Assembly: GCA_026994195.1 (NCBI GenBank)
Contig: JALWRH010000050.1
Span: 1 to 64,000 of the forward strand
Origin: Sedimenticola sp.
GTDB taxonomy: Bacteria; Pseudomonadota; Gammaproteobacteria; Chromatiales; Chromatiaceae
DNA: 64,000 bases
Reading direction: 5' to 3'
Made by a program: the position numbers and the translations under genes
Part shown: positions 29,398 to 32,541 of the stretch, piece by piece
How positions within the stretch are numbered: position 1 is the stretch's first letter
Layout of the letters: each line of letters opens with the position of its first letter
The notes under the pieces: generated by a model
Told to the model about the DNA's origin: nothing
The model's database searches: none
Seen by the model: only the letters and a program-made list of their open reading frames with translations

Positions 29398-29530
29398 CTT
29401 GGTTCCTCGAAATCAGGAAACCGGGTAGTTTACTCAGTTTGAGCGCTGACTGAAAGCGCAAGACGGCCCCGACCTTCAGAGGAGGAAGGTTCTGACCGGG
29501 AAGGGGCAATGGATGGAGGTTCTTATTTGC

Positions 29531-29584
29531 CATTAACCGCAGAACTACACCGAGGACGCGAAAGAAGAAGCGCCCTGTTGGGCC
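29531..29584 (+). repeat. Possible degenerate attC-like site at the upstream edge of the cassette array
   Basis: Ends in GTTGGGC (29578-29584) after a weak GGACGCG...GCGCCC pairing; the R'' end (CATTAAC) departs from RYYYAAC. Confidence 0.25.
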
Positions 29585-29649
29585 TGGCTATACATACCCC
29601 TAATTGCTGGTGTAGTATTTTAACGACACTCACATACAGGGAAACGACA

Positions 29650-29781
29650 ATGACAGATGCTCAGGGACGATTCCAGCCGTATCTCCGACATTCATCTTCA
29701 TCGCACCGGACTTCTAGCCAGGTTTCCTTCGAAGTTGCTTCAAGCCTGGCGGGTTTCCCCATCGTGTTATTGGTGACCTAA
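29650..29781 (+). CDS. Small hypothetical ORF (43 aa), possible first cassette ORF or gene remnant
   Basis: MTDAQGRFQPYLRHSSSSHRTSSQVSFEVASSLAGFPIVLLVT; stop overlaps ACCTAAC. Confidence 0.35.
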   Translation: MTDAQGRFQPYLRHSSSSHRTSSQVSFEVASSLAGFPIVLLVT

Positions 29782-29889
29782 CGCCAAGGTGGATCAATGA
29801 AATCTGCGGGTTATGGTGGATACGGAATTTTATTTGGCGGATTCGTCGTGTTGCAACATGACGGATTTGCCGTCGAATTGTAGTTATGC
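29776..29889 (+). repeat. Candidate attC-like site upstream of the DUF2971-like gene
   Basis: Starts ACCTAAC (29776-29782), ends GTTATGC (29883-29889); weak internal symmetry (GACGG...CCGTC). Confidence 0.35.
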
Positions 29890-29909
29890 ATTAAAAGAAA
29901 ATCATCTAC

Positions 29910-30536
29910 ATGGCTTCGAAAGATATTAGAAGATACACTGATTTTCCATCAGTGCTGTATATGCTGAGGAATAGGAAGTTAACCCTGCTTAACCCGTCAA
30001 GCTGGGATGATAGGAATGACGCCTACTTCCTTGAGGTATATAAGGAAAAAAAGAATCTTTCGTCTGCTCTCGCGCTGTGTTTTTCAGAGAAAAATGAAAC
30101 GTACCACCATTGGAGCGTGTTTTGCTCTAGAGAAAACGGTGTGTGTATTGTATTCGATAGAGAAAAATTCATAGAACACCTAAGCGGTCAGCAAGGGATT
30201 ACTTTTGGGCCAGTTAATTATAGAACAATTGGTGATACCGGCTGGCCCGATCTGGCAATAGATGATTTGCCATTTTTGAAAAGGTGGGCGTTCAGAGACG
30301 AGTCGGAATTTCGAATTATCTACTCTGATGAATCCAGATCAGAAGAAACCAAAGATATTCATTTGCCGCTTTCTTGTGTGAAGAAAATAATGATCAATCC
30401 ATGGATTCCAGATCAGTTGTTTTTTGCCATTAAAGAAACGATAAAGGAAATCGATGGATGCAAGTCACTCGGTGTTGGAAAATCTAGGCTAATAAATAAC
30501 GACAGCTGGAAGATGGTCGGAAAAATAATTGCATAA
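29910..30536 (+). CDS. DUF2971-like protein, putative gene-cassette cargo
   Basis: 208 aa; RYTDFPSVLYMLRNRKLTLLNPSSWDDRNDAYFLEVY...ALCFSEKNETYHHWSVFCSRENGVCIVFDREKF; AT-rich; stop codon lies inside GCATAAC. Confidence 0.75.
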   Translation: MASKDIRRYTDFPSVLYMLRNRKLTLLNPSSWDDRNDAYFLEVYKEKKNLSSALALCFSEKNETYHHWSVFCSRENGVCIVFDREKFIEHLSGQQGITFGPVNYRTIGDTGWPDLAIDDLPFLKRWAFRDESEFRIIYSDESRSEETKDIHLPLSCVKKIMINPWIPDQLFFAIKETIKEIDGCKSLGVGKSRLINNDSWKMVGKIIA

Positions 30537-30603
30537 CAAGAAAATTAACGCGGAGGCTATTTTCGCTAGCGCTCAAATTGCCCCGGTTATTTAGTCGTTG
30601 GGC
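30531..30603 (+). repeat. attC-like recombination site (73 bp)
   Basis: GCATAAC ... GTTGGGC ends; central palindrome GGCtATTTtcGCTAGCgctcAAATtGCC. Confidence 0.7.
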
Positions 30604-30624
30604 AGAAAAAGGGAGGAATACAAT

Positions 30625-31539
30625 GTGAGCATCAAAGAGATTGCACTTTTAATAGTCTCGCTACTATTGACAACTTTCGCGAACGCAGACCAAGCTGCAG
30701 TCGAGAAATACAAGAACTTCACGCCGAAACAGATCGCTGGTATTCCCGAAAAACAAAGAAGCTCCGAGGTTCCTATGATGTATATCATGGCCGCAAGGAA
30801 GGCATTATCGGAAGGTTCTGAATTGGTCTTTGGGATGGAGCTCAACCAATTAATGTATTCTGGCTTGTACGCATATCAAGATGCGGTTCGCCAATTTCAG
30901 AAAGATCTTGGTGATACTCCCTCTGGTAAGTTAACTGTTTGGCAAATTCATCAGCTCGGCCAAAGGGCTGAAATGCAGGGGCTATCTCGCGTCCTATTCC
31001 CAGATCAATTTTCGAGCTTCATCACAGATGACTACGCTAGCGTCCAGGGCACGATGAAGATCGTAGATGACAATATTGCTTGGCCAATCAATCATTCAAA
31101 AATTAAATGTTTTAAGGCAACTGGCCAGTGTGAATTCAGCCAAATTTATCTCAATGTTCCAGATGAATCATCTTGGAGTCAAAACTACCACGTGATGGAG
31201 GCGGATACTGAGTACTATTCGATTTCTCGATGGGGAAAAGATAGCATTGAAACCCTTCCCCTTGGAGGAAGCAATGCATGCAGGACCACAAGTATTAGCC
31301 TTAACTTTAAAACAAAAGAGTTCTATTTCATAACAAAGAACGCTGGCGGCGAGTGTAAAGCATTGGGAGTTGAGCTAGAAAAGCTCTCTAAGCCACGTAT
31401 TGCACAAGTTGTCGATGGCGCGGAAATCATCAATTCTAAGTTCTCCGAAATTCAGAAAAAGTCGTTTGAAGTGCTGGCGAGCGATTTCCGCAAGAAGGTA
31501 CAAGCGTCAATAGAAAAAGCAAAGAAAGCTGGTGAGTAG
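30625..31539 (+). CDS. Exported hypothetical protein with a possible peptidoglycan-binding-like segment; cassette cargo
   Basis: GTG start after GGGAGGAA; signal peptide IKEIALLIVSLLLTTFANA; segment AYQDAVRQFQKDLGDTPSGKLTVWQIHQLG resembles PG-binding repeats (weak). Confidence 0.7.
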   Translation: MSIKEIALLIVSLLLTTFANADQAAVEKYKNFTPKQIAGIPEKQRSSEVPMMYIMAARKALSEGSELVFGMELNQLMYSGLYAYQDAVRQFQKDLGDTPSGKLTVWQIHQLGQRAEMQGLSRVLFPDQFSSFITDDYASVQGTMKIVDDNIAWPINHSKIKCFKATGQCEFSQIYLNVPDESSWSQNYHVMEADTEYYSISRWGKDSIETLPLGGSNACRTTSISLNFKTKEFYFITKNAGGECKALGVELEKLSKPRIAQVVDGAEIINSKFSEIQKKSFEVLASDFRKKVQASIEKAKKAGE

Positions 31540-31555
31540 TACCGCAATGATTTAT

Positions 31556-31644
31556 GCCCAACACATGCCCTGAGGCATGTCCATTAAACCTCCCCCAAAA
31601 AAGCGCTGCGCTTATTTTTGGGCAACTAGAATGCGACGTTAGGC
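31556..31644 (+). repeat. attC-like recombination site (89 bp)
   Basis: GCCCAAC ... GTTAGGC ends; central inverted repeat CCCAAAAAAGCGC-TG-CGCTTATTTTTGGG. Confidence 0.75.
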
Positions 31645-31663
31645 TTACAAAGGAGTAATTGGC

Positions 31664-32032
31664 ATGAAAAAACTTACTCTGATATTTTTGCAATTAGCAG
31701 TTGCTCCGCTTTCATGGGCAAGCACAGCAAACTGCAATATAGAAATTGAGGATGTAAATGCTGGCACTAAATACAATGTAGAGCAAAAGTTTACAAATCA
31801 ACCAGGTTCTGATGCCCAAAGGAAGCATTTCAAACTACCAGGGAGCAATTATTCCTGCACCTTAGCTTTTTTTAACCTTGAGAGCGGCACCATGTTGTCG
31901 TGCCAGTTTGATGAGTTAGGCCAAAATTTCGTGCAATCTGACCGAAGTATCATTGGTGAGGGTAATGCGAAAAACAATCTCAGCTTTCGCTATGAATCCT
32001 CTTTTTTTGTTTTACACTCAAGCTGCAAATGA
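31664..32032 (+). CDS. Exported hypothetical protein (122 aa); cassette cargo
   Basis: AAAGGAG ribosome-binding site; MKKLTLIFLQLAVAPLSWASTANCNIEIEDV...; three more Cys residues downstream. Confidence 0.75.
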   Translation: MKKLTLIFLQLAVAPLSWASTANCNIEIEDVNAGTKYNVEQKFTNQPGSDAQRKHFKLPGSNYSCTLAFFNLESGTMLSCQFDELGQNFVQSDRSIIGEGNAKNNLSFRYESSFFVLHSSCK

Positions 32033-32033
32033 A

Positions 32034-32071
32034 GCCTAACACACGCCCTGAGGTAGTCCATCAAGAAAAAC
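32034..32071 (+). repeat. Truncated attC-like half-site at the 3' end of the array
   Basis: GCCTAACACACGCCCTGAGGTAGTCCATCAAGAAAAACC aligns to GCCCAACACATGCCCTGAGGCATGTCCATTAAACC at 31556; no GTTRRRY partner before the VOC gene. Confidence 0.6.
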
Positions 32072-32118
32072 CCACCTGACTCGCCAGCTCTTCAATAAGC
32101 CCCCCAGGAGATACCCCA

Positions 32119-32541
32119 ATGAGCCTGCTCCGCAACATTGACCATATCAACCTTACTGTCGCCGACTTTCGGGAATCAGCCCGTTGGTATGAGCAGGCAT
32201 TCGGCTTTGTAGTCGTCGAGGAAGCAGTTACCGATGGCGTTCTGTGGGGCATTCTCCGGGCAGGGGACAGCATGTTGTGCCTGTATGAGGCGCCGGACTT
32301 TACTCTGCTGGATCGCCACCAGCTGGCGGAGCGCAAGCTTCATGGCCTGGCGCATTTTGGCCTGCGTATCAGCGATCCGGAGAAATGGCAGCGGATTGCC
32401 AGGGAAATGGGCATCGAAATTCTTTATGGCGGGACCTACCGTTGGCCTCATTCCGACAGTTGGTACATCAAGGATCCCACCGGGTATGAAATCGAAGTCG
32501 TCCACTGGGATAAGGAACAGATAAGCTTCGATCCGCTATAA
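32119..32541 (+). CDS. VOC-family (glyoxalase/bleomycin-resistance fold) protein
   Basis: IDHINLTVADFRESARWYEQAFGFVVVEE...WYIKDPTGYEIEVVHW. Confidence 0.88.
   Translation: MSLLRNIDHINLTVADFRESARWYEQAFGFVVVEEAVTDGVLWGILRAGDSMLCLYEAPDFTLLDRHQLAERKLHGLAHFGLRISDPEKWQRIAREMGIEILYGGTYRWPHSDSWYIKDPTGYEIEVVHWDKEQISFDPL

Follow-up and report, generated by a model that had tools for sequence, protein, structure and literature searches.

Gene Cassettes Occupy an Insert between prfB and a VOC-family Gene

We compared the window, that is, the whole stretch of 64,000 nucleotides analyzed here, with the same-genus genome G008. Native DNA common to the two stops at 29456 and restarts at 32101, and G008 is colinear with both flanks of the insert thus delimited (29457–32100), which has prfB on one side and a native VOC gene on the other. 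The genus was taken as Thiolapillus because G006, one of the compared genomes, carries the T. brandeum plasmid pTBH10; the compared genomes are mostly MAGs, and several of these relatives were deposited as "Sedimenticola sp." The GC content is 0.40–0.47 across about 29.5–32.2 kb versus roughly 0.55–0.63 elsewhere, as the first-pass annotation had described in speaking of an AT-rich block in a GC-rich context; the foreign block is indeed present, but is slightly wider than the 29531–32071 proposed there. The features of the region are as follows.

29457..29589, no strand: left end of the insert; the native flank shared with G008 ends at 29456, and module conservation starts from about 29590
29590..29766, plus: leader common to orphan attI modules
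29767..29889, plus: attI, crossover G29883|T29884; same sequence beside intI in G005, G013 and G008
29884..30597, plus: cassette 1 (714 bp); core GTTATGC and R'' GCATAAC, exact complements
29910..30536, plus: cassette 1 ORF, DUF2971, 208 aa, candidate defence family PDC-S31 (PF11185, 7.4e-5; PDC-S31, 1.5e-17)
30531..30603, plus: attC 1, intact, bottom strand predicted to be recombinogenic (covariance model E=2.1e-6, a rough value; hairpin)
30598..31638, plus: cassette 2; core GTTGGGC and R'' GCCCAAC, exact complements
30625..31539, plus: cassette 2 ORF, GTG start, 304 aa, N-terminal signal-peptide-like stretch
31556..31644, plus: attC 2, damaged; R boxes present, IS1111-attC type end after R'', no model match
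31639..32040, plus: cassette 3, 3'-truncated; core GTTAGGC and R'' GCCTAAC (32034–32040), exact complements
31664..32032, plus: cassette 3 ORF, 122 aa, signal-peptide-like start
32041..32100, minus (transposase direction): relic of an IS1111-attC type end, directly after R'' of the third cassette; native DNA from 32101
32119..32541, plus: VOC-family gene, native neighbour; 90% orthologue at the same place in G008

The VOC gene was considered as a last cassette and ruled out, since it is native and its G008 orthologue holds the same position. G009 and G010 retain only the last 34 bp of this gene (window 32508–32541), which lie after prfB as the scar of a deletion, ahead of the gene that follows; the VOC gene itself is still present in the window and G008. 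A phage or plasmid origin of the insert was also ruled out: phages gave 0 DNA matches, plasmids matched the IS end only, and viral contigs lacked the attI pattern. A search against Rfam returned nothing credible. Upstream of prfB, the prfB-sulfatase spacer of G001:C380 holds about ten tandem copies of GGAAGTGAG.

All three cassettes begin with a core exactly complementary to their own terminal R'', giving the chain GTTATGC (29883)–GCATAAC (30531), GTTGGGC (30597)–GCCCAAC (31556), and GTTAGGC (31638)–GCCTAAC (32034). Such an exact chain reads as the trace left by insertion of circular cassettes, and it bears out the gene cassettes of the first-pass annotation, whose four RYYYAAC motifs (GCATAAC, GCCCAAC, GCCTAAC, and ACCTAAC) are all present. 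The protein of cassette 1 is matched by the profile of PDC-S31, a candidate anti-phage family (E=1.5e-17). In another genus, a 79%-identical DUF2971 homologue is likewise an attC-bounded cassette of an array, closed by the same R'' with a good attC. No family was matched by the cassette 2 and cassette 3 proteins in profile searches. The cargo can still be called unstudied, cassette 1 being assigned to DUF2971 and to PDC-S31 as a candidate only.

One attC Site Is Intact and Two Cassette Ends Carry IS Relics

RYHYAAC...GTTRRRY pairs spanning 52–150 nt occur on the two strands of the 64 kb only at 30531–30603, at 31556–31644 (where both strands give the motif pair), and in the attI region as read on the minus strand. 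We then used an attC covariance model. A first alignment of 14 attCs had misaligned arms and yielded no consensus fold, and six sites of other loci were used instead, all of one type, which makes the model narrow. It gave a single match in the 64 kb, exactly 30531–30603 with the bottom strand folded (E=2.1e-6, E-values of purpose-built models being rough), and it also picks up attCs in neighbouring integrons. The site at 31556–31644 was not matched even without filters. Its R boxes pair. The attC fold, in which R and L arms pair on the bottom strand, is seen at site 1 and not at site 2, and site 3 is truncated. Of the two good attC sites reported earlier, the first thus stands, whereas the second fails the model and has an IS end after R''.

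The stretch after R'' of attC 2 reads AACACATGCCCTGAGG, and IS elements of G009 and G003 begin with the identical sequence. No genuine R' follows the R'' of cassette 3 (GCCTAAC, 32034–32040), and 32036–32100 is 88–89% identical to the end of an IS110-type element (T. brandeum copies), which in T. brandeum directly follows R'' of attC sites. An IS end beside attC R'', the mark of IS1111-attC elements, is found at 32041–32100 and within 31556–31644, in both cases as a relic. A later deletion would have fused the IS relic of the third cassette to native DNA. The IS1111-attC insertion sequences were described by Tetu and Holmes (2008), as cited in PMC11187229; the likeness lies in the ends placed right after R'' of attC 2 and attC 3, and the difference is that the window keeps relics only.

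The Array Is Headed by an attI Site and a Conserved Leader

The 123 bp ahead of cassette 1 match the interval between intI and the first cassette of three genomes of the same genus (G005, G013, and G008), and Candidatus Thiodiazotropha G184 gives a weaker match. By sequence, the window thus has a complete attI site. The ACCTAAC motif at 29776–29782, previously listed as a possible cassette end, was rejected as an attC R''; it is conserved inside intI-adjacent attIs and belongs to the attI (29767–29889).

Upstream of attI, the leader holds a conserved promoter-like block (TATACA, 29589–29594; 18 nt; TAGTAT, 29613–29618), and a scan for consensus promoters called no standard forward promoter. 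We infer that the leader may act as the promoter of the array. Among 210 genomes of the family, the leader model matches orphan modules of Thiolapillus only. Conservation of the module rises at 29590, peaks at 29605–29619 and 29830–29889, and collapses past the crossover. No resemblance was found between the leader and the 5' region of intI, and the idea that the leader is a decayed form of that region was rejected.

These features bear on the plainest account of the locus, a CALIN in which attC-bounded cassettes lie at a random genomic site without attI. Cassettes are present and no intI is nearby, but the 123 bp before cassette 1 are an attI, intI-adjacent in relatives, which contradicts this account and makes it very unlikely. 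The definition of a CALIN calls for two or more attC sites with no integrase close by; the locus has no integrase, one intact and one damaged attC, and, unlike a plain CALIN, an attI. The earlier description as a CALIN-like array was right about the cassettes and the missing integrase, but with attI and a conserved leader at its head the array is better described as an integron platform without an integrase.

No Integrase Gene Is Found in the Assembly

The first-pass annotation saw no integrase in the window and proposed a search for intI elsewhere in the genome. The first point was confirmed and the search was negative: neither window nor assembly contains an integron integrase, the best score in the assembly being 84 bits against a cut-off of 265 bits. 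Of the elements of a complete integron, adjacent intI is thus absent and attI is present, as judged by its match to intI-adjacent attIs. Nor did any piece of intI turn up near the orphan attIs that have the leader. The integrase that neighbours this attI, IntI-A, was found only in G005, G008, and G013; G000, G001, and G009 are without it.

We considered whether an artefact of assembly or binning had split intI from the array. The genome is a draft of 126 contigs and integrons assemble badly; however, the intI-less order recurs in independent assemblies (G001, listed at 8% contamination, G008, G009, and the HyVt-567 contig), and both flanks of the window are colinear with G008. An artefact is therefore extremely unlikely.

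In T. brandeum (G006:C1:1955850–1956150), an attI-A adjoins a 46-codon intI-A remnant, which looks like an intermediate stage of integrase loss. Partial intI genes are found in G109, G112, and G184:C5. The attI region of IntI-B (62–65% identical), up to the first cassette, holds repeated copies of a GGCGATTTTCCACCTAG-like motif.

Leader-attI Modules Are Dispersed over Five Loci

The leader (about 180 bp) followed by attI was found in the window, G000:C40, G001 (in triplicate, with one copy apparently divided between contigs C139 and C188), G008:C3, G009:C41, and the HyVt-567 contig. As their upstream flanks show, these modules, all without intI, occupy five loci in the genus, two of them in this genome.

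Locus 1: prfB; window
Locus 2: 418-aa gene of unknown family; G000, HyVt-567, G001
Locus 3: GTPase gene; G008, G009
Locus 4: 3' end of AMP-binding enzyme gene; G001
Locus 5: partial duplicate of the AMP-binding gene 3' end locus; G001

Module-free alleles of the GTPase locus exist in G000, G006, and G003, and at the prfB locus the module is present in one genome only. The HyVt-567 contig, labelled Desulfobacterales, is probably a misbinned Thiolapillus contig, because it is 98.5% identical to G000:C40.

Comparison of these two alleles revealed a replacement of cassettes. G000:C40 and HyVt-567 have 98.5% identity across a 1790-bp stretch that takes in flank, leader, and attI, and they diverge exactly from G|TT, where the first cassette encodes a lipoprotein-like protein in G000:C40 and a PIN7-domain protein, closed by the matching R'' CCCTAAC, in HyVt-567. 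At the same 418-aa-gene locus, G001 has a third, different first cassette. The HyVt-567 cassette has an attC whose type also occurs in the IntI-A array of G005. This first-cassette variation at an orphan attI could predate the loss of intI or have arisen by homologous recombination.

The locus might instead be an ordinary chromosomal integron in decay, in which the intI beside this attI was deleted and attI with a few cassettes was left without later activity. The T. brandeum attI-A with its intI remnant, the partial genes in G109, G112, and G184:C5, and the broken attC 2 and 3 of the window are consistent with such decay. However, no intI remnant is found in the leader family, whose common leader sits where the 5' end of intI would be; moreover, modules stand at five loci, with different first cassettes in alleles that are 98.5% identical. 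We regard simple decay as unlikely.

G001 (C116/C286) carries a duplicate of the 3' end of the AMP-binding enzyme gene along with leader and attI (77% over 567 bp), which hints at a route by which modules may get copied. The 418-aa-gene locus is occupied by a complete integron with a different integrase, IntI-B, in T. brandeum (G006:C1:2968255–2970452) and G008:C113.

A GTT stands at the left edge at three of the five module loci, an observation made post hoc. In the window, GTTGGGC (29577–29583) within the left end of the insert may be the core of the left junction. Since attI-bearing cassettes are known to be mobile (PMC12901181), this post hoc pattern suggests insertion of the modules by IntI. 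The leader-attI module might then itself be mobile, a promoter-bearing attI-type cassette without an ORF that IntI inserts and that seeds capture platforms chromosome-wide; we put this forward tentatively, as a rather doubtful extension. On the same doubtful footing, the window module would begin at G|TTGGGC (29577) and end at the attI crossover, G|TT (29883).

The Window Carries a Probable Orphan attI Platform

Taken together, we conclude that the locus is probably an orphan attI platform, consisting of leader, attI, and cassettes but no intI, which an IntI encoded elsewhere loads or has loaded in the past. An integron integrase would have placed the cassettes at G29883|T29884, and the likeliest is one of the IntI-A type, which neighbours this attI in related genomes. 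Because precise insertion of cassettes needs IntI, the enzyme would have acted here either in trans from another locus or in an earlier state of the genome. Present activity in G000, G001, and G009 would need another IntI, such as IntI-B, or one missed by the assemblies, because IntI-A is absent there. The window copy is presumably nearly immobile, since attC 2 and 3 are damaged and the array has lost its 3' end; cassette 1 alone keeps an intact attC, and decay of this copy is the best reading. The suggestion of a sedentary or remnant array therefore holds in part, as two attC sites are damaged, but it does not cover a dispersed family whose orthologous copies have different first cassettes.

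The closest precedent is the CALIN of Shewanella prophage M16-3, which has its own attI (PMC9892861) and is likewise an integrase-less array headed by an attI of the host-integron type. It is a single prophage copy beside a complete integron, whereas the system described here is chromosomal, occupies several loci, has a conserved leader, and lies in a genome without intI. CALINs in general (PMC9024848, PMC12444791) share attC-bounded cassettes that have no intI; Xanthomonas is known to have conserved CALIN loci in its chromosome, and mobilization in trans is accepted for CALINs (PMC12444791). The window array differs from them in its complete attI, its leader, and its single intact attC. Delta-attI-type gene cassettes, which IntI1 can excise and insert (PMC12901181), also place attI sequence away from the integrase gene, but in them a partial attI comes after an ORF in the interior of an array, whereas an ORF-poor leader and a complete attI head the array here. 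The sedentary chromosomal integron of Thiolapillus (IntI-A in G005, G013, and G008) has the same attI and attC-bounded cassettes; the window lacks its intI and has the leader in place of the intI 5' end. A search of open-access papers for Thiolapillus together with integrons found no paper. What appears to be new is a dispersed family of chromosomal attI platforms with its own leader.

The usual picture of an integron is a single integrase with a single attI at its side. If our reading is correct, one integrase can serve several expression sites per chromosome. Entries filed as CALINs may then also hide unrecognized attI sites, because attI sites other than those of class 1 have been little characterized and escape common software (PMC9024848). 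With the orphan platforms, it can be tested directly whether IntI acts in trans on attI sites of the chromosome.

A similar arrangement was seen in the genus Candidatus Thiodiazotropha, in which G184:C2, G180:C114, and G176:C4 share a 4-kb upstream flank (94%) that ends in an attI-like site without intI. This site appears to be a second orphan attI, kept vertically and without the Thiolapillus leader.
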